Positions 861 to 16,520 of a stretch of DNA of 16,520 nt are shown in pieces (positions within the stretch are counted from its first letter, which is position 1; each line of letters opens with the position of its first letter). Position numbers and translations under genes: made by a program. The notes beneath the pieces are model-generated. The model searched no databases, was not told the DNA's origin, and saw nothing but the letters and a program-made list of their open reading frames with translations. The DNA comes from a bacterium (GTDB lineage: Bacteria; ARS69): positions 1 to 16,520 of the forward strand of contig JALGZO010000757.1 in NCBI GenBank assembly GCA_025774865.1, written 5' to 3'.

Positions 861-866
861 GTGAGG
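861..866 (+). promoter_or_regulatory. Ribosome binding site that decides the lon start
   Basis: GTGAGG lies six bases before the ATG at 873. The GTG inside it (861) is in frame and could be read as an earlier start, but no purine-rich site precedes it and it would sit only about 11 bases from the predicted transcription start. The ATG at 873 is therefore preferred. Confidence 0.5.
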
Positions 867-872
867 CCACGA

Positions 873-3332
873 ATGACCGAACCGCTCATCCCGGCACCGC
901 CCCTACCCGAGGTCGCCCCCGAGCAACTGCGCTGGAAGTGCGACCCGTCTGCCTTCCGGTTCCGCGACACGTCGGAGCTCGAGCCGATCCGCGACATCAT
1001 CGGCCAGGACCGGGCGCTGCGCGCGATTCAGCTCGGGCTGGAGATGAAATCTCCGGGCTACAACATCTTCCTCTCGGGATTCGTCGGGACGGGGCGCAAC
1101 ACGACCGTGAGCCGCGTCCTTCAGAAGCTCGACCGCGGCGAGGAATCGCCACCCGACCTCTGCTACGTCTTCAACTTCCGGGACCCCGACTGCCCACGCG
1201 CCCTCCTCGTGCCGGCGTCGAAGGGCTGCGACCTCGTCCAGCGGATGCGAAGGCTCGTGCGGCAGCTCGCGCGCGACGTTCCCAAGGTCTTCGAAGGTCA
1301 GACCTACCAGCGGGCCAGGGCCACGATCCGGAAGCGCTACGAGAAGCGCCAGCGGTCGGTCGTCGAGCAATTCCAGAAGCGTGCGGAAAAGGAAGGGTTC
1401 GCCCTCGTTCAAGTCCAGGCGGGAGCGATCGCGAACCCGGAAGTCGTGCCACTGATCGACGGCGAGCCGAAGTTTCTCTCGGACCTCGAGGAGGCGGTGG
1501 ACGGGGGGACGTTCGACGCGAAGAAGCTCGAACAGCTCCGCGACCGACAGGTGGAGTTCAGTTCGGAGCTCCCCACCGTGTTCAAAGAGGCTATGAAGGT
1601 CGAGACCGAGATGATGGTGCGCATCCAGGAGCTCGACGTTCGCTCGGTCAAACCGATCGTGGCCACGTGCGTCAGCGACGTCCGCGACGCCTTCTCCGAA
1701 CTGCCCGAGGTTCTCGATTACCTCGAGCAGGTCCAGGAGCACGTACTCGAGAACCTCGCGCCGTTCGTCGGGACCCACCCCATCCCGCGTCCTTCCCCCA
1801 CTGGCAACGGAATCGGCGAGTCCGAGGAACCCGGGGGACCGATCGAGTACCGGGTGAACCTCGTCGTCGACAATCGACGCGTCCGGGGGGCGCCGGTCCT
1901 GACGGAGGACGTGGCCACGTCGGCGCATCTCTTCGGCTTCGTGGAGCGGTCCTTCTCGACCGAAGGCGAGGGACCCGTCAATCACATGAAGATCAAAGGG
2001 GGGCGCCTTCACGAGGCGAACGGGGGCTACCTCATCCTGAACACCTCGGACCTGTTCAGCGAGCCGCCCGACGTCTGGAACCAGTTGAAGCGGGTCCTCC
2101 GCACCGGCAAGCTCGAGATTCCCACCTCGCCACCGGGATCGATGCTGGGGCCGTCCCCCGTGAAGCCGGAGCCGGTGCCCATTTCCGTGAAGGTGGTGCT
2201 GATCGGGGACCACCACCAGTACGCGATCCTCCATGCGTACGAGGAGGACTTCCGCAAGATCTTCAAGGTCCGCGCGGACTTCGACACGGAGATGTCGAAC
2301 GGTCTCGAGAACATCGTCCAGTACGGCTCCTTCGTGCAGCGGCTCGCTCAGGAAGAAGGCATCCTGGCGTTCGACCGGGGGGCCCTGTCCGCCACCGCGG
2401 AGTACGGTAGCCGCCTCGCCGGGCGCAAGAGCAAGCTGTCCACCCGATTCAACCTCATCGCGGATCTAGCACGGGAGGCCACCTACTTCGCTCGCCTGGC
2501 CGGCGCCAAGAAGGTCGGCGCCGAACACGTGGAGAAGGCCCTCGAGGAGAAGGACCACCGCGACAACCTCGCCGAGGAGAAGATGCGCGAGCAGATCGAG
2601 GACGGTTCGATCTTCATCGACGTCGAAGGTCAGAAGGTCGGCACGGTGAACGGGCTCGCCGTCTACGAGTCGGGTGACCACGTGTTCGGCCTTCCGTCGA
2701 GGATCACCGCCACGGTCAGCCTCGGCAACGCCGGCATCATCAACATCGAGCGAGAAGCGGACCTTTCCGGCCGGACGCACGACAAGGGCGTGCAGATCCT
2801 GTCCGGGTATCTGCGATCGAAATACGCGCAGGAGAAGCCGCTGACGCTCAGCGCGTCACTCTGCTTCGAACAATCGTATTCCGGGATCGACGGCGACAGC
2901 GCGTCCTCCACCGAGCTCTTCGCGCTTCTGTCCGCGATCGCCGAGCTACCCCTACGACAGGATGTCGCCGTCACCGGATCGGTGAACCAGAGCGGCGAGA
3001 TCCAGCCGATCGGCGGCGTCAACGAGAAGATCGAGGGGTTCTTCGCGATCTGCGAGGCGAGGGGACTCACCGGCACGCAGGGGGTCATGATCCCGGCCGC
3101 CAACGTCCCGGACCTGATGCTGCGACGGCGGGTCGTGGAGGCCGTGCGGGAAGGCCGCTTTCACGTCTGGGCGGTGGGTACCATGGACCAGGGGTTCGAG
3201 GTCCTGACCGGGGTCGCGGCCGGCGACAAGCAAGGGCGCCGCGCCTACCCGCTCGGCACCGCCAACGGACGCGTCGATCAGCGCTTGAAGAAGCTCGCGA
3301 ACCTGATGCGGGACTACGGCGGGCACAACTGA
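873..3332 (+). CDS. Lon-type ATP-dependent protease (AAA_32 / LonB-like class, peptidase S16)
   Basis: An 819-residue cytoplasmic protease of the Lon-related class that has an N-terminal AAA_32 ATPase with a long helical insertion and a C-terminal Lon proteolytic domain. In order: the conserved start IIGQDRALRAIQLGL, the P-loop region GFVGTGRNTT (about 69-78), a charged helical insert (about 120-290), ANGGYLILN (Walker B region, about 383-390), the sensor-2-like KLSTRF, then the protease domain from about residue 580. The catalytic dyad is visible: Ser676 in GDSASS and Lys719 in GGVNEK, 43 residues apart as in E. coli Lon. Two ATPase positions are atypical: Arg75 replaces the Walker A lysine and Asn390 the Walker B aspartate. 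Length is normal for the class. A GTG at 861 would add four residues. Its substrates are unknown; a quality-control role is inferred. Confidence 0.93.
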   Translation: MTEPLIPAPPLPEVAPEQLRWKCDPSAFRFRDTSELEPIRDIIGQDRALRAIQLGLEMKSPGYNIFLSGFVGTGRNTTVSRVLQKLDRGEESPPDLCYVFNFRDPDCPRALLVPASKGCDLVQRMRRLVRQLARDVPKVFEGQTYQRARATIRKRYEKRQRSVVEQFQKRAEKEGFALVQVQAGAIANPEVVPLIDGEPKFLSDLEEAVDGGTFDAKKLEQLRDRQVEFSSELPTVFKEAMKVETEMMVRIQELDVRSVKPIVATCVSDVRDAFSELPEVLDYLEQVQEHVLENLAPFVGTHPIPRPSPTGNGIGESEEPGGPIEYRVNLVVDNRRVRGAPVLTEDVATSAHLFGFVERSFSTEGEGPVNHMKIKGGRLHEANGGYLILNTSDLFSEPPDVWNQLKRVLRTGKLEIPTSPPGSMLGPSPVKPEPVPISVKVVLIGDHHQYAILHAYEEDFRKIFKVRADFDTEMSNGLENIVQYGSFVQRLAQEEGILAFDRGALSATAEYGSRLAGRKSKLSTRFNLIADLAREATYFARLAGAKKVGAEHVEKALEEKDHRDNLAEEKMREQIEDGSIFIDVEGQKVGTVNGLAVYESGDHVFGLPSRITATVSLGNAGIINIEREADLSGRTHDKGVQILSGYLRSKYAQEKPLTLSASLCFEQSYSGIDGDSASSTELFALLSAIAELPLRQDVAVTGSVNQSGEIQPIGGVNEKIEGFFAICEARGLTGTQGVMIPAANVPDLMLRRRVVEAVREGRFHVWAVGTMDQGFEVLTGVAAGDKQGRRAYPLGTANGRVDQRLKKLANLMRDYGGHN

Positions 3333-3350: not shown

Positions 3351-5453
3351 CTAACGCCGGAGTCGAACGAGCTTCTTGACGACCGTGTCCGGTCCCGCCA
3401 CCAGCCGCGCGAAGTAGATTCCGGAGGCCACCGGCCGACCGTGCCGGTCCCGTCCATCCCAGACGGCGAAGTCCTCGCCCGCCTCGCGTTCCTCGTCGAC
3501 CAGGGTCCGCACCCGCCTCCCACCCACGTCGTGGATCGCGAGCCGCACGGTGCCACGCGCGGGCATCACCCACGAGAACTGCGTCGCCGCCGAGCTCGGG
3601 TTCGGGCGTGGCGGGTAGAACGTGAACACGCTCGCGCCGAGACCGGACGTCTCCACCGAAGTGCCGGCCAGGGGCGTCGTCGACTGAAACGCGTAGAGGT
3701 GGCCGTCGCTCGCCCCCACGAAGAGCATGTTCCCCGAAACCGCGGGGGAGGATGCGACGGGGGTGCCGAAGTACCACTTCCAGAGTTCGGTTCCCGCATC
3801 GAGGTCGAGCGCGTAGAGGTAGCCGTCCAGGGATCCGACGTACGCCACCCTCCCCGTGATCGCCGGCGTCCCCATGGTCCCGGACGCGTCCCGGATCCCC
3901 GACACCATGTGATAGAGCTCGGGGCCCACCGGGTGGGACCAGAGGCTCGCCCCATCCGTGGCGCTCACCCCTTCGATCGTGCCGTCCCGGCCGGCCACGA
4001 CGACCACATCGTGGGCGAGCGCGGGGGATCCCGTCCCGTTGCCGAAGTTCACCGGTGATGTCCAGGAGATCGCCCCCAGCTCGTCGCGCGCGGTGAGTTT
4101 CTGGTTGTTCTTGTCGGCGTCGCCGACCACGTAGAGGATCGCCCCCGTCCAGATCGGCGATCGAAACGCGCCTTCGTCCACCCACACGCGCCCGCCCGTC
4201 GCGCGGTCGACGATCGCGAGACCCCCCTGGTTGAGCGGCGACACCCCGTAGAACCCGAAGTAGACGTAGTTCGCACCGACCGCCGGGCCGGAGTAGATGT
4301 ACGGGAACCAGTCTCCCCCCAAGGGATCCGTTTGCCAGTCGACGGCGCCGGTCGCCCACTCGATCTGGAGCGGGCGAGGTTCGGCCCCGACCCAGGCGAC
4401 GTCGCCGGAGAAGACCGGCGCCGTCATGTGGTAGCGCGAGACCGGGCTGGCGGTACTCCAGAGCAACTGCCCGGTCGCCGCGTCCAACCCGTAGACCGAG
4501 TCGGTGATCGCCGTGGCCAGGACGACGCCGCCGGCCACCGCCGGGGCGAGCGCGACACCCCCCGGGAAGTGCGTGAACCAGTCCACGGCTCCCGTCTCGG
4601 CGTCGCAGGCCATGACTCCGGCCTCGCTCACGTCGCGCTCCGGGCGCGAGCCGAAGTACACGGTTCCATTCGCGACGACCGGCGAGTTCAGGGCCACCAG
4701 GCCCGCCGACGGCGTCGACCAGGCGAGCTCCAGGGGCGGGGTAAGCTCATGCGCGACGAAGCTCGAGCCAGCCGGTCCATTGCGGAACATCGGCCAGTCC
4801 AGGTTCGGATTTCGCACGATCGGAACCACCGTGGCCCGTTCGAAGGAAGACATGATCGAGATCGGCGTTCCGTCGGCGAAGCTACCCGTCACCGTGATGT
4901 CGTACGTGCCTTCGGGCAGCGACGAGACGTCGAGTAGCTCTCGCCAGAGAGAGATCCCCTGCTGCGCGAGCGACACGGGCCCCGCCGTTCCTCCCGGACC
5001 GGAGACGCTCGCCGAGAGCGACGCTACGAGCGACGACGTGTCGTACGCCTGGACCATCACGTCGAGTGACGATCCGCCGAGCGCCTGTCCGGACTGCGGG
5101 TGCGTGATCTCCGCGCGGTGATCGACCGAGAACCGCCGAAGCTCGTAGCCGATGGTGCCGTCCGATTCGAAGGTGACGAAGCCGAACGCCCGTGGCGTCC
5201 GATCGAGCGGACCGATCGGGGTCCGGCCGAGATTGAACTCGAGGATCCCCTCGGGGCGATCGGTGAGCTGAAGCGCGTGCCAGTGCCCTGAGAACGAAGC
5301 GAGGATTCCGTCGGCCGCCCACTGCTCGCGCACGCTCAGATTCGACTGCTTCAAGAGATTGTGCTGGTACATGGCGAGGTGAGCGCCGGGCGGCGCGGCC
5401 GCGATGTCGTTATCCCACCACGACTCTTGGGCCCGGTGTCCCCACTGCCGCAT
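3351..5453 (-). CDS. Secreted phosphoesterase / PQQ-propeller protein, C-terminal frame after frameshift
   Basis: Downstream 700-residue frame of a gene broken by one base near 5430. It starts inside the metallophosphoesterase domain and carries that domain's last metal ligands: His31 in AMYQHN and GHWH (56-59). A beta-sandwich region follows (about 65-210). Next comes a PQQ-type beta-propeller (about 218-605) with repeated strands such as GTVYFGS, VYGLDAATGQLLW, YVGSLDGYLYALDLDAGTELW and FVGASDGHLYAF, probably seven blades. The end is a FlgD-like Ig domain (about 613-700) with PPRPNPSS, HDVGGRRVRTL and ASGIYFARL, a tail often found on exported proteins of FCB-related phyla. The first ATG of the frame (5453) is only nominal; the natural start is the GTG at 6213. 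It converges on lon, with 18 bases between stops and no hairpin terminator visible there. Confidence 0.85.
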   Translation of the reverse strand: MRQWGHRAQESWWDNDIAAAPPGAHLAMYQHNLLKQSNLSVREQWAADGILASFSGHWHALQLTDRPEGILEFNLGRTPIGPLDRTPRAFGFVTFESDGTIGYELRRFSVDHRAEITHPQSGQALGGSSLDVMVQAYDTSSLVASLSASVSGPGGTAGPVSLAQQGISLWRELLDVSSLPEGTYDITVTGSFADGTPISIMSSFERATVVPIVRNPNLDWPMFRNGPAGSSFVAHELTPPLELAWSTPSAGLVALNSPVVANGTVYFGSRPERDVSEAGVMACDAETGAVDWFTHFPGGVALAPAVAGGVVLATAITDSVYGLDAATGQLLWSTASPVSRYHMTAPVFSGDVAWVGAEPRPLQIEWATGAVDWQTDPLGGDWFPYIYSGPAVGANYVYFGFYGVSPLNQGGLAIVDRATGGRVWVDEGAFRSPIWTGAILYVVGDADKNNQKLTARDELGAISWTSPVNFGNGTGSPALAHDVVVVAGRDGTIEGVSATDGASLWSHPVGPELYHMVSGIRDASGTMGTPAITGRVAYVGSLDGYLYALDLDAGTELWKWYFGTPVASSPAVSGNMLFVGASDGHLYAFQSTTPLAGTSVETSGLGASVFTFYPPRPNPSSAATQFSWVMPARGTVRLAIHDVGGRRVRTLVDEEREAGEDFAVWDGRDRHGRPVASGIYFARLVAGPDTVVKKLVRLRR

Positions 5454-6213
5454 TCTCGTTGTTGTGGATCATCATGTGCCAGCTTCCGACCTCGACGGAG
5501 TAATACGGCGGGCCCACGTACAGTTCGTAGTACGCCATCGGGGTCGACGTGCCCAACGTGTCGTGATTCCCGACGACGTGGAGAACCGGGAAGTCGGAGG
5601 CCGCCAGCTGCGACACGTAGTTGTTCCAGTGCGTGGAATCCGAGCCCACCTGAACGATGTCCCCCGTGTTGATCAGGAACGACGGCGGCACGGCGAGCTC
5701 GTTGATCTCCAGCAGATCGTCGTCGAGGTGGCCCTGGCCCCACGTCTTGATCTGAGTGTCGGTGATGTGCACCCAGTGGACCGGGTCGGTGGCGGTGGCG
5801 GGGTTCGTCCTCAGGCCGAAGTCGACCGTGTCCGGACCCGCCGTACCGACCGGCACCCAGTGGTACCAATCAGTGGTCGGCCAGTAGCCGGCGGGAATCG
5901 TCATCGTCGCGAACCGGTACAGCGCTCGGTCGACCCAGACGTCGAGCTCGCCCAGGGCGTCGGTCGCGAGGACTTCGACCCCGTTCGTGAACCGCACGTC
6001 GGCGATCCCCGGCTCACCCCCCTGGCGAACGCCGTCTTCGTCGAGGTCGTGAAAGACCCGGCAGTGAACGAAGATGGAATCAGGCTGCGCGACCGCGACG
6101 GCGGTCACCGTCCAAGACAAGAGAAGTGCGACGATCGATCCGGTGGCCGCACGTCGACCCGTGGCGAGTTGGCAGGAGCCCGAAGACACGGCAGCCTCAA
6201 CAGCGGGGGTCAC
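5410..6213 (-). CDS. Secreted calcineurin-like phosphoesterase, N-terminal frame before frameshift
   Basis: First 267 residues of the broken gene. A GTG start leads into a signal peptide: GRRAATG, a hydrophobic stretch of about 15 residues, then a probable cut after AVAVA near residue 42. An SdrD-B-like domain follows (about 46-95, FHDLDEDGVRQGGEPGIA), as in the N-terminal domain of many exported calcineurin-like phosphoesterases. The phosphoesterase core then shows TDTQ (151-154), INTGD (181-185) and GNHD (215-218). The usual D-x-H of motif I is D-x-Q. The frame runs out as TPGPRVVVG; removing one base gives TPAQESWWDND and joins the next frame, making a 953-residue protein. An internal GTG eight codons in is an alternative start. 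It lies 62 bases after the Nudix gene. Alone, this product lacks the GHxH metal ligands and should be inactive. Confidence 0.82.
   Translation of the reverse strand: MTPAVEAAVSSGSCQLATGRRAATGSIVALLLSWTVTAVAVAQPDSIFVHCRVFHDLDEDGVRQGGEPGIADVRFTNGVEVLATDALGELDVWVDRALYRFATMTIPAGYWPTTDWYHWVPVGTAGPDTVDFGLRTNPATATDPVHWVHITDTQIKTWGQGHLDDDLLEINELAVPPSFLINTGDIVQVGSDSTHWNNYVSQLAASDFPVLHVVGNHDTLGTSTPMAYYELYVGPPYYSVEVGSWHMMIHNNENAAVGTPGPRVVVG
5428..5440 (-). other. Frameshift site inside the phosphoesterase gene
   Basis: On the minus strand the text is ...ACACCGGGCCCAAGAG... The upstream frame reads ACA-CCG-GGC-CCA, the downstream frame GCC-CAA-GAG. Deleting one G from the GGG run (5432-5434) restores a continuous, domain-consistent protein. 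Both flanking frames look well conserved, so this is either a recent one-base insertion or a sequencing or assembly error in a G/C run. No convincing programmed +1 site (a slow codon or stop in the A site) is present. Confidence 0.75.
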
Positions 6214-6275: not shown

Positions 6276-6782
6276 TTAGCGGAGATTTCGGGAGAGCCCC
6301 ACTCCGGCTCCTCGGCCGGCGTCGAGATAATCGCGGATCGCCTCGTGCGTGCTGTGGAACGCGAGGTCGTCCCAGGGGATCCCGGACTCCGGGAACGAAC
6401 GCGCCTCCAGGGATTCGGAAAGGGCCCGTGGCACGCCGTCGGTCACCGTTCCGCGGTAGACGATGATCACGGCCGTCTGCTGCGGATAGCTGTAGATCCC
6501 GAGCAGATCATCGAGCTGAACGCCGCAGCCGGCTTCTTCCCGAACCTCGCGCACCGCCGCGGCCTCGACGGTCTCTCCGCGGTCCACGTAGCCACCGGGG
6601 TACGTCCAGCGCCCGTACCCCGGTTCGATGGCGCGCTTCATGAGAAAGATCCCGCCCTCCCACCGGAAGATCACGCAGGCGGCGAGCTTCGGATCGAGGT
6701 AGTGCACGTGGCTGCAGGCCGGGCACGTCGGCGGCTGCCCCGCCAGCTCCGAGCCGCAGCGCACGCAGTGCTTCGCGGTCAC
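6276..6782 (-). CDS. Zinc-ribbon Nudix hydrolase
   Basis: A 168-residue pyrophosphohydrolase that cleaves a nucleoside diphosphate linked to another group. An N-terminal zinc ribbon (Cys6, Cys9, Cys20, Cys23) precedes the Nudix fold. The Nudix box is complete at 64-86: G-X5-E-X7-REV-x-EE-x-G, with Gly64, Glu70, Arg78, Glu79, Glu82, Glu83 and Gly85. The ribbon resembles that of NudC-like and ADP-ribose pyrophosphatase-like members, but the substrate cannot be read from the sequence. The GTG start at 6782 shares bases with the stop of the M20 gene (GTGA), and GGGGAG lies just upstream, so translation is probably coupled. It is the last gene of the eight-gene run. Given its neighbours, a dihydroneopterin-triphosphate pyrophosphatase role is possible but is only inference. 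Confidence 0.9.
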   Translation of the reverse strand: MTAKHCVRCGSELAGQPPTCPACSHVHYLDPKLAACVIFRWEGGIFLMKRAIEPGYGRWTYPGGYVDRGETVEAAAVREVREEAGCGVQLDDLLGIYSYPQQTAVIIVYRGTVTDGVPRALSESLEARSFPESGIPWDDLAFHSTHEAIRDYLDAGRGAGVGLSRNLR

Positions 6783-7927
6783 TCCGCTCCCCGCGACAAG
6801 AACAGCCTGGCGGCCCGCGTCATGATCTCGAGCCCGAGGGACAGCGCCCGTTCGTCGATGTCGAAGGTGGGATTGTGATGGCCTCCGGTGGGCGGCGTCG
6901 GCTGCGCTCCCACGCCGAAGAAGCAGCCCGGGACGGCGGCCAGGACGGAAGCGAAATCCTCCCCCGCCATCGTCTGCCAGCGGCCGATCACGTTCTCCGG
7001 GCCGACGATTCCCCCGGCCGCCTCCCGCACGATCTCGCTGACGCCGGGGTCGTTCACGAGAGCCTGAGTCACGCCCGTGATCTCGAGCTCTCCCCGGTCG
7101 CCCACGATCTCGTGCATTCGCCGGTGCACCTCGGCGCGCGTCTTCGCCGAGAACGTCCGGACGGTGCCCTCCATCCGCACCCGATCCGGAATGACGTTGA
7201 AGGCCGAGCCTCCGTGCATGGTCGTCACCGAGACGACGGCGCCCTCGAATGGGTCCACGCCTCGACTCACGATACTCTGGAAGCGCTGGACGATGTCCGC
7301 CGCGGCGACGATCGGATCGACGCACACCTGCGGTTTCGCCGCGTGTCCACCGCTCCCGTGCACGTCCAGCGTGAAGACGTCCGCCGCCGCCATCATGGGA
7401 CCCGGGCTGACGATCACCTTCCCCACCGGAACGTCGTTCCAGAGATGGAGGCCGATCGCGGCGTCGACGCCCGTAAGCAGCCCCTCCTCGATCATCCGGT
7501 CCGCGCCCTGTCCGCCTTCCTCCGCCGGCTGGAACGCGAACCGCACTTGTCCGGGAAAGTCGGCGCGCGCCAAGCGGCCCGCGGCCAGGAGCGCGATCGC
7601 GGTATGCCCGTCGTGGCCGCAGGCATGCATCACGCCGTCGTTCCGGCTCTTGTACTCGACGTCGTTCGCTTCCTGGATCGGCAGTGCGTCCATGTCGGCG
7701 CGAAGGAGCAACGACGGGCGGCCCTCACCGCGCGTCGCCAGCACGCCGGTCTCGGCCACTCGTTCCACGACGTCGTAGCCGAGCTCCTTCATCCGCTCCG
7801 CGACGATTCCGGCGGTGCGAGTCTCCTGATAACCGAGCTCCGGATGTCGATGGAAGTCGCGCCGGAGACGAACGAGCTCGTCGGTTTCGTCCGCCGTCGC
7901 GCGGGCTTCGAGGGGCACCGCGTTCAC
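6779..7927 (-). CDS. M20D family amidohydrolase / metallo-aminoacylase
   Basis: A 382-residue zinc- or manganese-dependent hydrolase of the HipO/AbgB-like group that removes acyl or amino-acid groups from amide-linked compounds. Visible motifs are the N-terminal RRDFHRHPELGYQE, RADMDALPI (76-84), HACGHDGHTA (101-110) with the M20D metal ligands Cys103 and His105, AEEGGQGA with Glu136 (catalytic base) and Glu137 (metal), GLHLW with His161, GSGGHAAKP in the dimerisation domain, and GGHHNP (350-351). Length is normal and no signal peptide is seen, so it is cytoplasmic. The GTG start at 7927 overlaps the ygfZ stop by four bases, and the stop overlaps the Nudix start in the same way. Relatives include N-acetyl-diaminopimelate deacetylase, hippurate hydrolase and p-aminobenzoyl-glutamate hydrolase; the substrate here is undetermined. 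Confidence 0.92.
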   Translation of the reverse strand: MNAVPLEARATADETDELVRLRRDFHRHPELGYQETRTAGIVAERMKELGYDVVERVAETGVLATRGEGRPSLLLRADMDALPIQEANDVEYKSRNDGVMHACGHDGHTAIALLAAGRLARADFPGQVRFAFQPAEEGGQGADRMIEEGLLTGVDAAIGLHLWNDVPVGKVIVSPGPMMAAADVFTLDVHGSGGHAAKPQVCVDPIVAAADIVQRFQSIVSRGVDPFEGAVVSVTTMHGGSAFNVIPDRVRMEGTVRTFSAKTRAEVHRRMHEIVGDRGELEITGVTQALVNDPGVSEIVREAAGGIVGPENVIGRWQTMAGEDFASVLAAVPGCFFGVGAQPTPPTGGHHNPTFDIDERALSLGLEIMTRAARLFLSRGAE

Positions 7928-8877
7928 GCAGGGTCTCCGTCCGGCGTGAGTGACAGGACCTCCGCGACCGCACCGGCGACGGAGAGCCGCGTTCCCGGCG
8001 ACTCGCGCCCCACCGCAACGTAACCGAGCGCCAGCGACCCGGCCTCGTCCCGAGCAGCGCTGGTGACGACGCCCACCTTCTCGTCGCCGTCGAGCAATTC
8101 GTCGCCCGGCGCGGGAGGATCCGCCGCTTCGATGCGCAGACGCACGAGCGCGCGCTTGACGCGATCGTAGCGGTTCACCCTCGCGATCACCTCCTGTCCG
8201 ACGTAGCAGCCCTTGGTGAAGCTGATCGCGTCGGTCATCCGAGCTTCGAGGGGGACGGTTCCTTCGTCGAACTCCGTGCCGAACGCGGGCACGCCGGCCG
8301 CCACGCGCAGTTCGTGCCACCGCGCTGCGTCGGCCCGGGGCAGCTCCGCGAGTACCTCCTCGACCGCGGCGACGGCGGCCGGCGGCCCGATCAAGTGGAA
8401 GCTCTTGCCTCCGACGTTTTCGGCGCGCATCAACCGGACCACCTTCCCTTCCAGCGCTCGATGCTCCCACGGCGCAAAACCACCGGCCGCCACCCCCAGC
8501 TCGACTTCGATCATTTCGACCGCGCGCGGCCCGCACACGGTGAGGAGCCTGCTCTCACCGGCCACGTCGGTGCACGTGACGTCGTCGGCGATGATGTACT
8601 TCTCGAACCAGCCCGCGACGTCCGGCCCCCGTCCCGAGCTCCCCACGAGGAGAAAGTCGTCTCCACGATCCGCGACGATCACGCGATCCACGACGCGCCC
8701 AGTCCGTTCGAGCAGAAGCGTGGGCACCCCGCGCCCGACCGACAGACCGCTCACGTCGTTCGTGACGAGCCTCTGCAAGAAGTCGCGCCGCTCCGGCCCG
8801 CCCACCACGACGCGGGCCAGATCGCTTCGATCAATGCGGGCGCTCGTCGTGCGCTCAATCACCGAGATACTCGACAT
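7924..8877 (-). CDS. ygfZ: Folate-binding protein YgfZ (GcvT-like)
   Basis: A 317-residue relative of the glycine-cleavage T protein that binds tetrahydrofolate and supports iron-sulfur enzyme maturation or repair. The family signature KGCYVGQE is at 222-229, with the conserved Cys224. FLQRLVTNDV (33-42) and PLEARMTDAISFTKGC match the GcvT-like fold, and the C-terminal part (about 243-317) is the small beta-barrel. The ATG at 8877 lies 23 bases inside the end of the preceding queD-like gene; no strong ribosome site is present, so reading may depend on the upstream gene. A GTG five codons later is an alternative start. Its place directly after a pterin enzyme fits its folate requirement. MutY in this window also carries an iron-sulfur cluster, but no functional link can be claimed from that. 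Confidence 0.93.
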   Translation of the reverse strand: MSSISVIERTTSARIDRSDLARVVVGGPERRDFLQRLVTNDVSGLSVGRGVPTLLLERTGRVVDRVIVADRGDDFLLVGSSGRGPDVAGWFEKYIIADDVTCTDVAGESRLLTVCGPRAVEMIEVELGVAAGGFAPWEHRALEGKVVRLMRAENVGGKSFHLIGPPAAVAAVEEVLAELPRADAARWHELRVAAGVPAFGTEFDEGTVPLEARMTDAISFTKGCYVGQEVIARVNRYDRVKRALVRLRIEAADPPAPGDELLDGDEKVGVVTSAARDEAGSLALGYVAVGRESPGTRLSVAGAVAEVLSLTPDGDPA

Positions 8878-9619
8878 GGTTGCGGTCCGTCTCCCGGATC
8901 CGGATGCGGTGCAGGCGAACGCGACCGGGCGCCGATCCCTCGAGGGGATCCTTGACGCGACGCCAAGCGATGCGCGCGATCTCTTCCGCCGTCGGATTCA
9001 GGTTCGCGAACTCCGCGAGGTCCTCGTTCAGGTTCCTGTGATCCCACCGGTCGACGATCTCGGTCGCGACGATCGTGTCGAACGTCGCGGCCTCGAGCAA
9101 TTCGCCGGTCTCTCCCGGCTCGCCCCGCACCGTCACCTCGAGGATGTAGTTGTGTCCGTGCCCCCGCGGGTTGTTGCACTTGCCGAAGACGCGGAGGTTC
9201 TCCTCGTCCGTGAGCGACGGGCTGTGAAGACGATGGGCGGCGCTGAACTCGTACACGCGCGTTACGTCCACGGTGTCTCCTCCGCGGTAGTCGAAGACCG
9301 ACCGACCCCCCGCCAGGCGCACCCTCCGCACCGGTATCTGGCCAAGTCGGCCCCCGAGCATACCCCAGATCCCGCGCGCCAGTGCCTCCGGGGTGCGGAG
9401 CTCGGGCGTGCCGTTCGTCCCGTCGAGACAGCGGCCCGCGAGCCTCTGCACGACGTCACGCCGTAGCGTCTCCTTCATCTCCGAGAGGTTCACCACCATT
9501 CCGTGCTCGGGATCCACGGGCCCTTCCACCGTGACCACGAGATCGAACGCGAAGACGTGGAAACGCCCGTCCGCCGCCGGGGCGAGCGTGGTGATCTTCT
9601 CGACACGGGTGACGTACAC
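8855..9619 (-). CDS. Tandem 6-pyruvoyl-tetrahydropterin synthase / QueD-like protein
   Basis: 254 residues with two PTPS-like (T-fold) domains. The C-terminal domain (about 118-254) holds the full zinc and catalytic set: FSAAHRL (His129), KCNNPRGHGHNY (Cys148, His154, His156), WDHRNLN (Asp193, His194), PTAEEIARIAW and IRIRETDRNHVEY (Glu243). The N-terminal domain (1-about 115) keeps the fold pattern and DPEHGMVVNLSEMK (36-49), typical of PTPS, but lacks the zinc histidines and the catalytic cysteine. Single-domain QueD proteins are about 120-150 residues, so this is a fused duplication. Family members act on dihydroneopterin triphosphate in queuosine, biopterin or folate synthesis; which one applies here is undecided. 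The GTG start at 9619 follows AAGGGA. It lies 42 bases after the permease gene and overlaps ygfZ by 23 bases. Confidence 0.88.
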   Translation of the reverse strand: MYVTRVEKITTLAPAADGRFHVFAFDLVVTVEGPVDPEHGMVVNLSEMKETLRRDVVQRLAGRCLDGTNGTPELRTPEALARGIWGMLGGRLGQIPVRRVRLAGGRSVFDYRGGDTVDVTRVYEFSAAHRLHSPSLTDEENLRVFGKCNNPRGHGHNYILEVTVRGEPGETGELLEAATFDTIVATEIVDRWDHRNLNEDLAEFANLNPTAEEIARIAWRRVKDPLEGSAPGRVRLHRIRIRETDRNHVEYLGD

Positions 9620-9661
9620 GGGATCCCTTCGGTTCGAGGCGAGTCGGGCGCCGGCGCGCGC

Positions 9662-10594
9662 TCAGCGGCTCCGCCGAAACGGCTTCGCCAGGGCGGCCGG
9701 AGCGCCCGAGCCCTTCCGCGCGGTGGTTCCGAGCGCGACCAGGGTGAGAGCGTAAGGCAACATCTGGAAGAACTGGTAGGGGATCTCGCCCCCGAAGAGC
9801 TCACGTCCCTGGAGCCTCACCTGGAGCGCCATCGCGAGCCCGAAGAGGAGCGCACCGAGACCGCCCGCGATCGGATTCCAGCGCGCGAAGACGACGATCG
9901 CCAGCGCCACGAAGCCGCGGCCCGCCGACATGTTCTCGACGAACGTGTTCGAATACCCGATCGAAAGGTAGGCGCCGGCGGCTCCGGCCGCGGCCCCGCC
10001 GAAGAGCACCGCCAGTGCCCTCACCCTGAGAACGTCGATGCCCGCGGTCTCGACCGCTTCGGGATTCTCGCCCGCCGCGCGAACGAGAAGCCCCGGCGAC
10101 GTCCGGTTCAGAAAGAACCCGGTGGCGACCATCGCCGCGATCGCCGCCCATCCCAGGGCGTTCTGCCTGAAGAGAGCCGGCCCCACGAGCGGAAGATCGC
10201 CCAGCAAGGGAATCGTCCAGACCCGCAGCGACGCGACGAAGATGGTTCCGTCGTGCGCACTCGCGACGGCGCGGTACGCCACCCCCGTCACCCCCAGGGC
10301 GAGCACGTTCAACGCGACGCCCGTGACGATCGGGTCGATCCGCCCGGTCAGGACGAGGGCGGCGAAGAGCGCAGCCCAGATCGTCGAGGCCAGGATGCCG
10401 GCGGCGACCCCCACCGCCGACCCACCGAGCCCCCACGCCCCGACGAACGCCGCGAACGCGCCCACCAGGATCATCCCCTCGAGCCCGATGTTCAGGACGC
10501 CGGCCCGCTCCGCCACGATCTCGCCGATGACCACGAGGAGAATCGGGATCGAGATGCGAACCGCAGCGGTGAGGAGGCCTTCTCCGAACTCCAT
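9662..10594 (-). CDS. BMP-type ABC transporter permease 2 (NupQ/YufQ-like)
   Basis: A 310-residue inner-membrane permease of the BPD_transp_2 family (PF02653), partner of the preceding permease. Multiple hydrophobic segments run through the protein, including ISIPILLVVIGEIVA, LVGAFAAFVGAW, ILASTIWAALFAALVL and YALTLVALG. The family signature AERAGVLNIGLEGM lies at 28-41. The ATG start at 10594 shares one base with the upstream stop (TGATG). In this family the two permeases form a heterodimeric channel served by one double-ABC ATPase. The basic C-terminus (KPFRRSR) is probably cytoplasmic. The substrate is set by the binding protein and is unknown. Confidence 0.92.
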   Translation of the reverse strand: MEFGEGLLTAAVRISIPILLVVIGEIVAERAGVLNIGLEGMILVGAFAAFVGAWGLGGSAVGVAAGILASTIWAALFAALVLTGRIDPIVTGVALNVLALGVTGVAYRAVASAHDGTIFVASLRVWTIPLLGDLPLVGPALFRQNALGWAAIAAMVATGFFLNRTSPGLLVRAAGENPEAVETAGIDVLRVRALAVLFGGAAAGAAGAYLSIGYSNTFVENMSAGRGFVALAIVVFARWNPIAGGLGALLFGLAMALQVRLQGRELFGGEIPYQFFQMLPYALTLVALGTTARKGSGAPAALAKPFRRSR

Positions 10595-11604
10595 CAGTCG
10601 TCTCCCCGCCGACCGACGACGACGCCGGACGCGATCGACGCGAGGATCACGACCGCCTGGATCACGAGCACGAGGACGTACGAAACGTCCGCTTCCTGCT
10701 GCATTCGAGAAGAGCCGGCTTCCAGCGCCCCGAAGAACAGCGCCGCGGGTACGAGCGCCCACGGCCGGAGCCGGGCCAAGAGCGCCACGGCGATTCCAGT
10801 GAAGCCATAGCCGGGTGACACCTTGTCGAAGAGGCGGCCGAGAACCCCGAGGACCTCCACCGCGCCGGCCACCGCCGCGATCCCGCCCGAGACGGCCGCG
10901 GCCGTGAAGATCGTACGACTCACCGGAATGCCCGCCCACGCCGAAGCGCGGGGGTTGCGGCCGACCGCCTTCATGCGAAACCCGGTCTCCGTCCGCTCGA
11001 GAAGGAACGCGACGATCACGACTGCGGCGAGGGCGAGGAAGATCCCCGCGTGAAGCGGATACGCGCGCCCGAACACTCGAGGCAGCGCGGCCGACCCGGC
11101 GACCAGGTCGCCGATCGGCTGGGCGCGCGACGCCTGCTGCAGCGGCCCGTGGACGAGCCACGAGAGCGTGTACAGCGCGACGAAGTTCAGCATGATCGTC
11201 GAGATGACTTCGAACGCGCCGCGGCGCACCTTCAGCCACGCCGCCAGGCCGCACCAAGCGGCTCCGCCGGCGAACGCGAAGACGACGATCACGGGCAAAT
11301 GGATCGCCGTCGGCCAGCCTTCGATGGCACCGATCCAGCCCGCGACGATCGCACCGACGACGAACTGACCCTCCGCCCCGATGTTCCAGAAGCCGGCCCG
11401 AAACGCCACCAACACGGCGAGCCCGGTCAGGAGAAGCGGGATCGCTTTCGTCCAGACCGTGAGGAACCCGTAGAGCGATCCGACGCTGCCTCTGGCGAGG
11501 GCGGTCATCGCGAGCCACGGATCGCGCCCGGAGACGAGCACGACGACGCACGAGGCGGCCACCGCCCCGAGGAGAAGAGCCGCGACCCGCACTCCGCTCC
11601 TCAC
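10594..11604 (-). CDS. BMP-type ABC transporter permease 1 (NupP/YufP-like)
   Basis: A 336-residue inner-membrane permease of the BPD_transp_2 family. The first hydrophobic segment is at about 6-24. The family signature FRAGFWNIGAEGQ lies at 68-80, and the conserved ERTETGFRMKAVGRNPRAS loop follows in the middle. Several further hydrophobic helices are seen, ending in VSYVLVLVIQAVVILAS. The GTG at 11604 overlaps the ATPase stop by four bases (GTGA), the junction style used elsewhere in this operon. A second GTG at 11592 has a better ribosome site (AGGAG, four bases upstream), so the true product may be four residues shorter. The reading frame is open further upstream, but that part lies inside the ATPase gene and has no membrane-protein character. 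Confidence 0.92.
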   Translation of the reverse strand: MRSGVRVAALLLGAVAASCVVVLVSGRDPWLAMTALARGSVGSLYGFLTVWTKAIPLLLTGLAVLVAFRAGFWNIGAEGQFVVGAIVAGWIGAIEGWPTAIHLPVIVVFAFAGGAAWCGLAAWLKVRRGAFEVISTIMLNFVALYTLSWLVHGPLQQASRAQPIGDLVAGSAALPRVFGRAYPLHAGIFLALAAVVIVAFLLERTETGFRMKAVGRNPRASAWAGIPVSRTIFTAAAVSGGIAAVAGAVEVLGVLGRLFDKVSPGYGFTGIAVALLARLRPWALVPAALFFGALEAGSSRMQQEADVSYVLVLVIQAVVILASIASGVVVGRRGDD

Positions 11605-13109
11605 GAGAGGTCGGACCCGAGCATCATCGCACCGAGGAGCTCGGCGTCCGGACGATCCGCTTCCCGCAGTCGCCCACCGGTCATCACGGCCCACCGATCC
11701 GCGATCGCCAGCACTTCCTCGAGCTCGGTCGAGAACAGGATGATCGCGCGCCCGTCGTCACGGAGCGCCGCGAACGTCCGCCGCAGCTCCCGGATGGCGG
11801 CGAGGTCGAGACCGCGCAACGGGTTGTGCAGTATGAGGACAGACGGGTTTGCCGCGAGCTCGCGCGCGACGAGGAGCTTCTGCTGGTTGCCGCCGGACAG
11901 CGTCGCGGCCGGCGCATCGACGCTGGGTACGCGCACGTGGAATCGGTCGACCAGCTCGTGGGCGCGCCTGGCATGCTCCCGGGGGTCGATCCAGAGACCC
12001 CGGCGCGCCCACGCCGCCCCGAACTCTCGAAGCGCGAGATTCTCCGTGACCGTGGCGTCCAGCACGAGCCCTTCGCGGGCGCGATCCCCCGGAAGCACCG
12101 CGAGCCCGCGTCGCCACCGCTCAGCAACCCCGGCAGCCGTCACATCGGTGTCGCCGAGACGAATCCGTCCGCTCCCGGGGCGCTCCATTCCGGCCATGAG
12201 CCGAACGAGCTCGTCCTGACCGTTGCCGTCGACGCCCGTGACACCGAGAATCTCGCCCCCCGAGAGCTCGAATGAAACGTCCCGGACCGTCACCCGGCCG
12301 GCGTGGGACGACAGGTTCTCGACCGTGAGGAGCGTTCGCGCCGACGCCGGCCGCGCGCGCGGAACGTCGGCCGACGGAACGCTGTCCGCTCCGACGATAC
12401 GGCGCGTCAACTCGCCCCGCTCGGTATCCCCGGTGCGACCCCGCGCGAGGATCCGTCCGCGGCGGAGCAGCGTGATCCGATCGGAGATCTCCAGCGCTTC
12501 ATCCAACTTGTGACTGATGAACGCCACGGCCGTACCGCCGTCGGTGAGCCGCCGGATCACGTCGAACAGGTCACCGACCTCACTCGGCGCGAGCACCGCC
12601 GTCGGCTCGTCCAGAATGAGCAGTCGGACGCGGCGAGAGAGCGCCTTTGCGATCTCGACTCGTTGCCGAGCTCCGACCGGTAGCTCCTCGACCTTGGCGT
12701 CGAGCGGAAGGTCCAGCCGGAAGCGACGGCCGAGCTCTTCGCACGCTCGGCGCGCCCTTCCCCGGGTCAGCCGGAACCGAGGGCGATCCGGATGAGCCAG
12801 CCAGATGTTCTCCCAGACGGAGAGCGCGGGGACGAGCATGAAGTGCTGGTGCACCATCGCGATTCCGAGGGCGCGCGCGTCGGCGGACGAGCGGAGTCGA
12901 ACGTCCTGTCCGCGCCACACGAGCTTCCCGGCGTCCGGCCGGAGGATCCCGTACAACACGTTCATGAGAGTGGTCTTGCCTGCTCCGTTCTCGCCGAGCA
13001 CGGCATGGACCTCGCCGGCGGCGACGTCGAGATCCACTTGATCGAGAGCCACGACGGAGCCGAAGCGCTTCGTCAACCTCTCGACGCGCAGGAGGGTCGC
13101 GTCCGTCAA
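11601..13109 (-). CDS. BMP-type ABC transporter ATP-binding protein, two ABC domains (YufO/NupO-like)
   Basis: A 502-residue ATPase with two fused ABC domains, as in sugar, nucleoside and riboflavin importers of the BMP group. Domain 1: Walker A GENGAGKT (39-46), Q-loop HQHF (87-90), signature LPVGARQ (143-149), Walker B LLILDE (163-168) and switch histidine ISHK (198-201). Domain 2 has the degenerate P-loop GVDGNGQDEL (292-301) normal for this group, a canonical LSGGNQQK signature (404-411) and LILHNPLRGLD in place of a full Walker B. Domain 1 is thus the likely main hydrolytic site. The TTG start at 13109 overlaps the stop of the binding-protein gene (TTGA). Length matches the family. Confidence 0.95.
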   Translation of the reverse strand: MTDATLLRVERLTKRFGSVVALDQVDLDVAAGEVHAVLGENGAGKTTLMNVLYGILRPDAGKLVWRGQDVRLRSSADARALGIAMVHQHFMLVPALSVWENIWLAHPDRPRFRLTRGRARRACEELGRRFRLDLPLDAKVEELPVGARQRVEIAKALSRRVRLLILDEPTAVLAPSEVGDLFDVIRRLTDGGTAVAFISHKLDEALEISDRITLLRRGRILARGRTGDTERGELTRRIVGADSVPSADVPRARPASARTLLTVENLSSHAGRVTVRDVSFELSGGEILGVTGVDGNGQDELVRLMAGMERPGSGRIRLGDTDVTAAGVAERWRRGLAVLPGDRAREGLVLDATVTENLALREFGAAWARRGLWIDPREHARRAHELVDRFHVRVPSVDAPAATLSGGNQQKLLVARELAANPSVLILHNPLRGLDLAAIRELRRTFAALRDDGRAIILFSTELEEVLAIADRWAVMTGGRLREADRPDAELLGAMMLGSDLS

Positions 13110-14101
13110 TTCGGCGAGGCGAGTACGTCGATCTCGCCAGAGGCGATGCGCTGCTCGAGATCCGCGAGGAAGGCCGCGACGTCCGGGCCGAGCTCGGGAG
13201 CGGCCTCGGGACTCACGACGACGCTCACCACCCCTTCCTTCACTCCCATCGTGGTCGCGGCGGGAACGAAGCGGCCTGCCTTCACCGCCCGCCCGACGGC
13301 GAGGTAGGCGGCCGGCACGTCGAGCACCGCGCTCGCCAGGATCGCGCCAGGCACCACGCGATTCTGATCCTTGTTCGAACCGAACGCCCAGACGCCGTCA
13401 TGCTCCGCCGCGGCCTGGAAGACTCCGAGCCCGGCCTTGTCGGCGTTCTGAAACAGGAACCGGGCGCCCTGCTCGATCAGGGCTTCCGCGTGCTCGCGCG
13501 CCAGCGCCACATCGTGCCAGTTGCCCACGTACTTCGTGACGACCTCGAACTCGGGGTTCACGCCCTTCGCGCCGTTCTCGAATCCGTCGAAGCCCGGTTT
13601 CAGCGAGGGAATCTCCTCGCCGCCGATCATGCCCGCGACCGGCCGTTCCGAGAGGTGCGCGGCGAGCGCGCCGAGGACGTACGTCGCCTCTTCGAGCCGA
13701 AAGTGCACGGCTGCGACGTTCGCGGCGTGTCGATTGCCGGCGATCACGATGAATGTGGTGCCAGGGAAGTCCGGCGCGACGCGAAGGGCCGCGTCCTGAA
13801 ACTCGTACGCGTGTCCGATCACGAGCTCGTAGCCTTGCGCAGCGAACTCGCGCAGATTCTCTTCGAAGCGGCTCTTGTCGAGGCTCTCTACCTTCGCGAT
13901 CTGCGCTCCGAGCTCCCGCTCGAGCAGGAGAAGGCCCTCGTGAGCGCTCGCGTTCCAGCCGTCGTCGGAGACGGGCCCGGTGAGCAGCAGCGCCACCCGG
14001 AAGTCGCTCGGCGGCGAGGCGTCACGACCGGCGCAGCCGGCCGCGCCCAGCACCAGGGCGAGCACCGACGCCCGAGTGACGAGGCGAAGAACTCCGTTCA
14101 A
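13106..14101 (-). CDS. BMP-family substrate-binding lipoprotein (PnrA/BmpA-like)
   Basis: A 331-residue periplasmic or surface binding protein of the BMP (PnrA/Med) family and first gene of the run. The signal peptide runs from a basic start (RLVTR) through VLALVLGAAG to the lipobox cysteine Cys23, so it should be a lipoprotein. The ligand-site signature SDDGWN (45-50) corresponds to the DD..N motif that contacts the nucleoside ring or ribose in PnrA-type proteins. Other family blocks are the FEENLREFAAQGYELVIGH region and FGSNKDQN. Known ligands in the family are purine nucleosides (PnrA), riboflavin (RfuA) and others, so the substrate is open. The TTG start at 14101 has a well-placed GGAG site and a strong promoter upstream, which supports it despite the rare codon. 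Confidence 0.93.
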   Translation of the reverse strand: MNGVLRLVTRASVLALVLGAAGCAGRDASPPSDFRVALLLTGPVSDDGWNASAHEGLLLLERELGAQIAKVESLDKSRFEENLREFAAQGYELVIGHAYEFQDAALRVAPDFPGTTFIVIAGNRHAANVAAVHFRLEEATYVLGALAAHLSERPVAGMIGGEEIPSLKPGFDGFENGAKGVNPEFEVVTKYVGNWHDVALAREHAEALIEQGARFLFQNADKAGLGVFQAAAEHDGVWAFGSNKDQNRVVPGAILASAVLDVPAAYLAVGRAVKAGRFVPAATTMGVKEGVVSVVVSPEAAPELGPDVAAFLADLEQRIASGEIDVLASPN

Positions 14102-14479: not shown

Positions 14480-16207
14480 TCAGGTGGGTCGGGACTCCGG
14501 CAACGGTTCGACCGGCACCACATCGTCCCAGTAACTGCCGGGGGGAGTGCCCTCGCCACCGTGCTCGACGCGCCGCTGCCACGCCTCCAGCGCGCGCGCA
14601 TACTCCTCGCGAACCGAACGTCCGAACTCGCCCGGCGGATCGCTGTCCTCGCCGGCTACACGAAACCCCTGCTCTTCCAGCCACCGTTCGGCCGCCGCCC
14701 GGTTAGTGACCGGGCGCAGCCACGAGTTTTCGCGCTCGAAGCGCTCGTCGAATCCGTCGGCGGCGGCGATCGTCTCGAACAGCGTCTTCTCCGCGCGGAG
14801 GAACGTTCCGTCGCCGTCGGCGTCTACCCACCACGCGGTTTGTCCCCAACCACGCACGGCATCGCGCACGTTCGAGGGAAGCTCTCCCTCCACCAGCGAA
14901 TCCAGAAGCTGGAGGATCTCATCCGCCGTCAGCCCTTCCTCGACTCCGCGGGCGACGGAGTGCGGCGTGAGCGTGTAAGTCCAAAAGCGGTCCAGGGACT
15001 TCAGCTCCGCGATTGCTCCGATACGCCGGTGCATCTCGGGTGAGCACTCTTCCGGAATGAGCAGCTCGAAGTTCGGTTGCGCGTAGGCGCGCAGGCGTTC
15101 CCGCTCGCGTCGGCGGCGGCGGATCGTCTTCGATGTGTGCAGGAGCCTCCACGCCTCGATGGCGCTGTCGACGGCGGCGGCGACCGGCTCGCCCTGCGGG
15201 TCTTTCCCCGTGTACACGAGGCCGAGATCGGCCAGCAGATGGACACAGGCCGAGACCCAGCGACTGGTGGGGCCCTCGACGCTCACGTCGGCCTGCGGAC
15301 GAATCCGTAGCACATGGAACGAGCTGCGAAGGGCGCGGTACCGGACCGCCTCCGTCAGCGACTCCAGGGGAATCCACGCGGCCCCCTTCCAGTCGACGAG
15401 CGCCTCCAGTGCGATGGGGATGTTCTCGTAGTTGTCCTTTAAGAAGGAGAGGAAGAGACTCTGACGCTCCACTTCCCGACGACTCGCCCAGTCGGTCCAG
15501 TTCTCCGCATCGAGGTAGAGACGCTTCCCGCGCTTCTCGAGGAATCCCATCTTGCGGAACAGCTCGATGAGTCGGCTGATGCGTCCGCGGATGAGGCCGA
15601 CCGACCCCGCTCCCTCGCCGGGCTCGTAGAGATAGGGATGAAAGAAGTCCCCCATCCCCTCGAGGTCTCGCTTCCAGATCTTCTCTTCCTCGGCCATGAC
15701 GCGCGGAGGGTTCTGGTGGATGTGATTCAGCACGGCGACGGCGAGACCGTGTACCGATTGTCGGAGAGCGCTGGAGCCGGGGACGACCTCCGACTTCCGG
15801 CGCTTCGGCTGGCCGATGATCCTGCGGCCGAAGACCTCGCCCATCCCCTCGGGGAGGTAGGCGATGTCGCTGCCGATCAGGAACGTGATGTGGCGGCTGC
15901 GCAGCCCGAGGAACGTGCGCTCCCATTGCTCGGCGGATCCGCGTCCCCGGGACACCAGCTCGCCGAACAACCACCGCCGCGGCGCGATCCCGCCCACTTG
16001 CCGAAGGACATAGAGCAGCTCGGCGTCTTCCGGTGAGAGCTCCGCCGCGAGCTGCTTGGCGACTTCGGGACTTTCGAGGTGCGCCGCGAGCTCCGCCACC
16101 ATCTCGTTGCGATCGTAGCCGCCCGTGTCGAGGTGGTAGCGGTAGATCGTCCGCAGATGCTCGAAGAGAAGCTCGTTCCCGAGAAAATCGGTCAGAGTTC
16201 TCTTCAC
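14480..16207 (-). CDS. XPB helicase partner with helicase-associated (XPB/Ssl2-like) domain
   Basis: A 575-residue protein of the helicase-associated family commonly encoded beside bacterial XPB. The recognisable part is the Helicase_C_3-type domain (PF13625), about 375-456: AYAQPNFELLIPEECSPE, ELKSLDRFWTYTLTPHSV, EEGLTADEILQLL and LPSNVRDAVRGW. The N-terminal 370 residues are helical and winged-helix-like (RISRLIELFRKMGFLEKRGKRLYL), without ATPase motifs. The tail is acidic and Pro/Trp-containing. By analogy with archaeal XPB-Bax1 it may modulate or add nuclease activity to the helicase; no nuclease motif was identified, so this is inference. The GTG at 16207 overlaps the helicase stop in the GTGA style; a GTG at 16219 would add four residues. 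Confidence 0.85.
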   Translation of the reverse strand: MKRTLTDFLGNELLFEHLRTIYRYHLDTGGYDRNEMVAELAAHLESPEVAKQLAAELSPEDAELLYVLRQVGGIAPRRWLFGELVSRGRGSAEQWERTFLGLRSRHITFLIGSDIAYLPEGMGEVFGRRIIGQPKRRKSEVVPGSSALRQSVHGLAVAVLNHIHQNPPRVMAEEEKIWKRDLEGMGDFFHPYLYEPGEGAGSVGLIRGRISRLIELFRKMGFLEKRGKRLYLDAENWTDWASRREVERQSLFLSFLKDNYENIPIALEALVDWKGAAWIPLESLTEAVRYRALRSSFHVLRIRPQADVSVEGPTSRWVSACVHLLADLGLVYTGKDPQGEPVAAAVDSAIEAWRLLHTSKTIRRRRRERERLRAYAQPNFELLIPEECSPEMHRRIGAIAELKSLDRFWTYTLTPHSVARGVEEGLTADEILQLLDSLVEGELPSNVRDAVRGWGQTAWWVDADGDGTFLRAEKTLFETIAAADGFDERFERENSWLRPVTNRAAAERWLEEQGFRVAGEDSDPPGEFGRSVREEYARALEAWQRRVEHGGEGTPPGSYWDDVVPVEPLPESRPT

Positions 16208-16520
16208 GGACCCACCCACCGGTCGGCTTCCCGGACGGTCCCGCGGAGGTGCTCTTCCAACTCCTCCGGTACCTCCAGGTCGACGACCTTGTAGTGATAA
16301 CCCTGCTCGGTCAGGAACAGCTGCCTCTTCAATGCGAACTCCTGCTCGGAGGTGTGAGAGGTCACGAGCGAGTAGAATCGAGTGTCCGCGTCCTTGGGGC
16401 GCAGAATACGGCCGAGTCGCTGGGCTTCCTCTTGGCGCGACCCGAACGTTCCGGAAACCTGAATGGCGACGTTCGCCTCGGGAAGGTCGACCGCGAAGTT
16501 CGCGACCTTCGAGACGACGA
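16204..16520 (-). CDS. XPB/ERCC3-type DNA helicase, C-terminal end (start beyond window)
   Basis: The last 104 residues of a superfamily 2 DNA helicase of the XPB/Rad25 class. Visible are SKVANFAVDLPEANVAIQ (motif V region) and GSRQEEAQRLGRILRPK (motif VI with the arginine finger), then the XPB-typical ending FYSLVTSHTSEQEFALKRQ and YKVVDLEV. Motif VI with QEEAQRLGRILRPK distinguishes XPB from other SF2 helicases. XPB unwinds or remodels DNA in nucleotide excision repair and transcription in eukaryotes; in bacteria the role is poorly known. The stop overlaps the start of the partner gene by four bases, so the two are coupled. Confidence 0.95.
   Translation of the reverse strand, partial: VVSKVANFAVDLPEANVAIQVSGTFGSRQEEAQRLGRILRPKDADTRFYSLVTSHTSEQEFALKRQLFLTEQGYHYKVVDLEVPEELEEHLRGTVREADRWVGP

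Follow-up and report, generated by a model that had tools for sequence, protein, structure and literature searches.

Described members of the BMP family of substrate-binding proteins include PnrA/TmpC, BmpD and Lbp, the guanine-binding AtzT, which was found with guanine bound (PMC6834077), and RfuA of Treponema, which binds riboflavin. Among the 6-pyruvoyltetrahydropterin synthases (PTPS), the motif CxxxxxHGH defines PTPS-II, the biopterin type (PMC5041015). According to a 2026 review, it is unknown how pterins pass through bacterial membranes (PMC13259868). Here we describe a contig of 16,520 nucleotides from a bacterium of the lineage ARS69 (JALGZO010000757.1, assembly GCA_025774865.1; contig C761 of genome G000), in which the genes of a BMP-type ATP-binding cassette (ABC) importer are followed by a gene for a tandem PTPS. 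The whole contig, hereafter the window, was analysed; the genome measures 4.7 Mb in 785 contigs and is 92.7% complete with 8.3% contamination. The importer and the PTPS very probably belong together as one module of biopterin-type pterin metabolism. To the fuller account, a transport-plus-synthesis module whose importer is most likely for a pterin, we give a probability of roughly 0.5.

The importer and its link to pterin synthesis genes

The original prediction had read from the window an eight-gene run in one direction with six of its seven junctions overlapping. Coordinates and family matches bear out the run, and the overlaps were found as well. The genes lie on the minus strand, from 14101 down to 6276:

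13106..14101, minus strand: BMP-family substrate-binding lipoprotein (Pfam PF02608, 1.7e-56; AlphaFold2 model with pLDDT 90.7; trees)
11601..13109, minus strand: ABC importer ATPase with two ATPase domains (PF00005, 7.6e-51)
10594..11694, start uncertain, minus strand: ABC importer permease 1 (PF02653, BPD_transp_2, 2.6e-40)
9662..10594, minus strand: ABC importer permease 2 (PF02653, BPD_transp_2, 3.1e-30)
8855..9619, minus strand: tandem PTPS (PF01242, 9e-41; match to PDB 1b66/3i2b; residue counts)
7924..8877, minus strand: YgfZ, CAF17-like with a folate-binding fold, accessory (TIGR03317, 90.4 bits, cut-off 49)
6779..7927, minus strand: M20D amidohydrolase (TIGR01891, 346 bits, cut-off 154)
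6276..6782, minus strand: Nudix hydrolase with zinc-ribbon-like cysteines at its N-terminus (PF00293, 4e-17)

Adjacent genes overlap by 4 (BMP/ATPase), about 16 (ATPase/permease 1), 1 (permease 1/permease 2), 23 (PTPS/YgfZ), 4 (YgfZ/M20D) and 4 bases (M20D/Nudix), and the sole junction without overlap is a 42-base gap from permease 2 to PTPS. For permease 1, the overlap offers a single in-frame start codon, GTG at 11694, and homology begins at about 11616. The lipoprotein carries a signal peptide ending in LGAAGC, and its BMP domain together with the ATPase and two BPD_transp_2 permeases makes up a BMP-type ABC importer. Scanning the window with Rfam and for tRNAs gave no RNA element or riboswitch that would name the cargo.

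The C-domain of the tandem PTPS reads CNNPRGHGHNY and so carries the PTPS-II signature, which is present in all 84 full-length tandem PTPS. Residues H129, C148, H154, H156, D193 and E243 are invariant among these 84 proteins. The C-domain of the window protein is complete, with the metal-binding H129/H154/H156, the catalytic C148/D193/H194 and the substrate residue E243. Human PTPS is the best match in the PDB by sequence (2e-28) and also by structure (Z 20.5, root-mean-square deviation of 1.7 A over 135 residues, 42% identity; pLDDT of the model 92.6). The N-domain of the window protein keeps the fold without metal or catalytic residues; its Cys and Glu are lost in most tandem PTPS, and the window's family also lacks the metal-binding motif. 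By these residues the enzyme is classed as PTPS-II, not QueD, and its N-domain as a decayed PTPS copy; the earlier label 'PTPS/QueD' was thus right about the family and wrong about QueD. Tandem PTPS with a pseudo-enzyme N-domain are common to Cyanobacteria, Bacilli, Poribacteria, Armatimonadota and others.

The phylum of the window was sampled with five genomes, all of one family (G000 to G004). The core of BMP protein, ATPase, two permeases and tandem PTPS is kept in four of them. Apart from the window's genome, these are G001, G002 and G004, all the other tandem-PTPS carriers in the phylum, which retain the block order up to their contig ends. Since the block recurs in these sister genomes, contamination is of no concern for the locus.

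Furthermore, we scanned a tandem PTPS alignment against named genomes and obtained 80 loci. Importer genes stand beside PTPS in 14 of them, 12 in Armatimonadota (L097, L120, L122, L123, L127, L129, L131, L135, L139, L143, L145 and L162) and two in Planctomycetota (L119 and L130); in addition, all importer genes and PTPS are present in genomes G008 and G168. BMP protein, ATPase, two permeases and PTPS are complete in 9/14 linked loci, with the order mostly unbroken. About 4 kb separates importer from PTPS in L135, L139 and L145 are truncated by contig ends, with importer and PTPS divergent in L145, and no BMP protein was found within reach of the importer genes in L097, L119 and L130. As the arrangement is kept in other genera and its core also occurs in other phyla, it goes beyond chance. 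In a quick tree of 88 tandem PTPS sequences, the importer-linked state needs five changes, of which well-supported branches force two or more, and the link is therefore either old and repeatedly lost, or was made more than once.

Among the tandem PTPS loci we found FolE in 26 and a short-chain dehydrogenase/reductase (SDR) in 28, with FolE2 in FolE's place in L102. L120 and L129 have the order importer-PTPS-SDR, and L097 the order ABC-PTPS-FolE. This company fits the biopterin pathway, which leads from GTP through dihydroneopterin triphosphate and 6-pyruvoyltetrahydropterin to a reduced product. We call these neighbours merely SDR because none reached a sepiapterin-reductase equivalog in NCBIfam; one Poribacteria SDR passes a general SDR model only. 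Aromatic amino acid hydroxylase (PF00351), which is biopterin-dependent, occurs in 12 of the 13 importer-linked genomes outside the phylum versus 1 of 14 control genomes. Within the phylum, pterin-4a-carbinolamine dehydratase is found in the four tandem-PTPS genomes and is missing in G003, although these numbers are small.

Two further arrangements were seen. In G307 (L242, 4800-10181), BMP-ATPase-permease-permease is directly followed by the GTP cyclohydrolase I FolE (249 bits), a second kind of link between importer and pterin genes. In Paenibacillus, Pontibacillus and Virgibacillus (L109, L112, L121 and L125), FolE-tandem PTPS-SDR is followed by ATP-binding regulator-like genes (anti-sigma or kinase type) and their partners.

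The binding protein and its probable cargo

The pterin-linked BMP proteins and four others form one clade with a support of 100/99 (98/92 in the first tree). PnrA, Lbp and the BMP protein of a second, PnrA-like importer in the window's genome (L086 on contig C528, with homologs in G002, G003 and G004) fall into a different group, and the separation of the window protein from them has the same 100/99 support. AtzT belongs to a third group, nearer to the pterin-linked clade in the unrooted tree. The original prediction had named two outcomes that would speak against it, transporter and enzyme genes that are not neighbours in relatives and a binding protein that groups firmly with purine-nucleoside binders and binds only those. 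Neither occurred, because importer and tandem PTPS adjoin in other genera, Armatimonadota and Planctomycetota, and the binding protein groups apart from PnrA. In a sample chosen without regard to PTPS, PTPS or FolE adjoins the BMP gene in five of nine clade members (G000, G002, G008, G168 and G307); none of eight PnrA-like loci has either gene nearby, some of their contigs being short. The clade also contains orphan BMP genes without ABC genes beside them in G043 and G332 (L082 5154-6206 and L240 9021-10085), the former adjoining formate-dehydrogenase-like genes.

Proteins of the linked clade share the signatures W49, GHxxE (H97, E100), PS and GSNxxQN, in which W49, H97, E100, N243, Q246 and N247 are invariant. 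Compared with PnrA-type proteins, the Asp of GVDxDQ is changed to Asn (N243), SF is changed to GW, and GHxxE is added. Of the aromatic sandwich of AtzT, Y45 corresponds to the invariant W49, and the window protein retains W194; it also retains N218. Where AtzT contacts guanine through E165, N220 and S97, the window protein has S166, D221 and A98 instead. This pattern suggests that a flat ring is still bound, with hydrogen bonds other than those for guanine or a nucleoside; as a guess, E100 could be the partner of the pterin amino edge. All four importer proteins stay below the cut-offs of the models for a putative B6 BMP importer (NF047927-NF047930), with 89.5 vs 400 for the BMP protein, 436.5 vs 670 for the ATPase, and 180 vs 400 and 194 vs 465 for the permeases. 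For the cargo, the likeliest single option is a pterin, either scavenged or taken back once lost to the medium, and to this we give a little less than an even chance. More tentatively, the clade may represent bacterial ABC importers specialised in unconjugated pterins of the neopterin, monapterin or biopterin type and placed in biopterin-type synthesis operons of several phyla.

Several observations weigh against a pterin importer. FolE is present in all five phylum genomes and FolB in four, the fifth being G001, which is 67% complete. The host thus makes its own dihydroneopterin triphosphate and does not depend on import. On the use side, PF00351 is missing in all five phylum genomes, and no sepiapterin reductase was identified in the window's genome. 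Four clade members lack a pterin gene next door, and nothing recognisably pterin-related was found among the genes that follow the G368 and G218 importers. The fold of the BMP model, closest to BmpD, Lbp and PnrA, fails to separate binders of nucleosides, nucleobases and riboflavin (Z 35-39). Finally, a purine ligand is possible because AtzT holds guanine and the neighbours of more distant BMP importers in G113 and G379 (L243 and L244) include a nucleoside hydrolase and a deaminase, beside an SDR. These two loci may be nucleoside or nucleobase salvage clusters.

The last point leads to the alternative that survives best, that guanine or guanosine is the cargo and the importer genes stay beside FolE or PTPS since pterin synthesis draws on GTP. 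AtzT is indeed the nearest characterised relative by phmmer, and in the unrooted tree the clade groups with nucleobase binders of the AtzT type, not with PnrA. However, the guanine contacts are replaced and the linked clade has invariant residues of its own, the host already has a PnrA-like importer, and the tie to PTPS is hard to explain, because purine import would serve all nucleotide synthesis. We regard guanine or guanosine as a less likely cargo than a pterin, but as the next most likely.

Still less probable is the alternative offered with the original prediction, a common nucleoside importer followed by genes that have nothing to do with it, in which the PTPS link would reflect chance or shared inheritance. 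The BMP family is mostly nucleoside-binding, its nucleoside binders are among the closest folds, and M20D and Nudix are indeed unrelated neighbours. The nucleoside importer itself is weakened because the genome has the separate PnrA-like importer on C528. Moreover, the link turns up at four separate points in the PTPS tree and, with FolE, in G307. The PnrA-like importers in these genomes lack this company, and the clade stands well apart from PnrA.

Make-up of the eight-gene run

The run is flanked by two further genes of the window:

14480..16219, minus strand: Helicase_C_3-type protein, which delimits the module on the left in G002 and G003 (PF13625, 2.3e-12)
861..3332, plus strand: LonB-like protease, which marks the older neighbourhood on its right in G002 and G003 (PF13654, 1.7e-37)

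In G003, which is listed as 100% complete and has no tandem PTPS, the order is helicase-M20D-Nudix-LonB, with nothing between helicase and M20D and with 55, 60, 71 and 54% identity for the four proteins. In G002 we found helicase-BMP-ATPase-permease-permease-PTPS-M20D-Nudix and then LonB, with YgfZ missing from the locus. The run thus consists of two units, the core of importer and tandem PTPS, and a tail of M20D and Nudix that belongs to an older neighbourhood; YgfZ is an optional addition to the core, dispensable in G002. Because G003 keeps the order without the importer block, M20D and Nudix are long-standing neighbours of helicase and LonB, and their site has either gained or lost the importer-PTPS(-YgfZ) block. 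Given this make-up, the short gene overlaps are weak evidence for shared function.

The two gene orders also bear on the scheme of the original prediction, in which a folate-type compound would be imported and processed by PTPS, YgfZ, M20D (p-aminobenzoyl-glutamate cleavage) and a NudB-type Nudix enzyme. The eight genes are co-directional, mostly overlap, and stay together in G001 and G004 within reach of their contigs. A single functional unit of eight genes is nevertheless rejected on the orders of G003 and G002, and in the loci from Armatimonadota and Planctomycetota none of YgfZ, M20D and Nudix was found adjoining the importer. The identity of the Nudix protein as NudB is rejected as well (NF006961, 28 bits vs a cut-off of 103), and M20D passes the cut-off of only the general amidohydrolase subfamily (TIGR01891) among curated families and reaches no specific one. 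Nor does the host lack folE or folB, two of the genes named in the proposed check, and on this evidence it is not a folate or pterin auxotroph. From the predicted scavenging run for a pterin-, folate- or flavin-like compound, what stands is the tie of the importer to pterin enzymes; the eight-gene scope and the folate part find no support, and we consider the full scheme highly improbable.

The weakest alternative, a salvage of queuosine precursors with PTPS acting as QueD, starts from the membership of QueD in the PTPS family and the resemblance of 7-deazaguanines to guanine, and is rejected since the motif is C-x5-HGH and not CxxxHGH, TIGR03367 gives 81.6 bits under a cut-off of 89.25, and queuosine is served elsewhere, contig C28 of the same genome bearing a separate PTPS-I (CRRLHGH) beside genes that read as QueC- and QueE-like in translation.

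Between the run and the protease gene, an open reading frame for a metallophosphoesterase (5410-6213) and one for a PQQ/FlgD-type propeller (3351-5453), both on the minus strand, overlap in different frames. They look like one gene split by a frameshift, or an assembly error.

Proposed role and comparison with known systems

In the role we propose for the core, PTPS would turn dihydroneopterin triphosphate, supplied by the genome's FolE, into 6-pyruvoyltetrahydropterin. The lipoprotein would bind a flat heterocycle, with aromatic residues on either side, for uptake by the transporter; most likely this is a pterin lost to the medium by the cell or its neighbours. Synthesis and recovery of the pterin would then share one transcript, with YgfZ as an optional member and M20D and Nudix as mere neighbours. 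In the open papers searched, we found no description of the tandem PTPS, and neither a BMP-type pterin importer nor a pterin-specific bacterial ABC importer. The conserved importer clade comes with a short gene set to express, which makes the uptake side directly testable.

Compared with PTPS-II of biopterin synthesis, the window enzyme has the same CxxxxxHGH motif, three His ligands, catalytic Cys/Asp/His and Glu, but is fused to a second, decayed PTPS domain; over the whole chain, its layout resembles that of two-domain T-fold enzymes, urate oxidase among them (Z 13). Transporters for folate/biopterin (BT1) and for folate also handle pterin-type cargo, but their families are unrelated to the BMP importer. 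RfuA has the same fold (Z 35.1) and a pteridine-related flavin as cargo, whereas its sequence match is weaker (8e-14 vs 2e-37 for AtzT) and no riboflavin genes were noted in the window neighbourhood. AtzT, with the top phmmer score in the PDB, differs in its gene neighbours, and its second aromatic residue is absent in the Armatimonadota members. With PnrA/TmpC, BmpD and Lbp the importer shares the fold and the four-gene ABC layout (Z 38-39), but the linked clade is separate from them and tied to pterin synthesis genes, and BMP importers should not all carry the name 'nucleoside importer'. The protein families involved were already known; what is put forward here is the pairing of importer and PTPS as a candidate pterin importer, which, if true, would be the first system of this kind for pterin uptake to be proposed.

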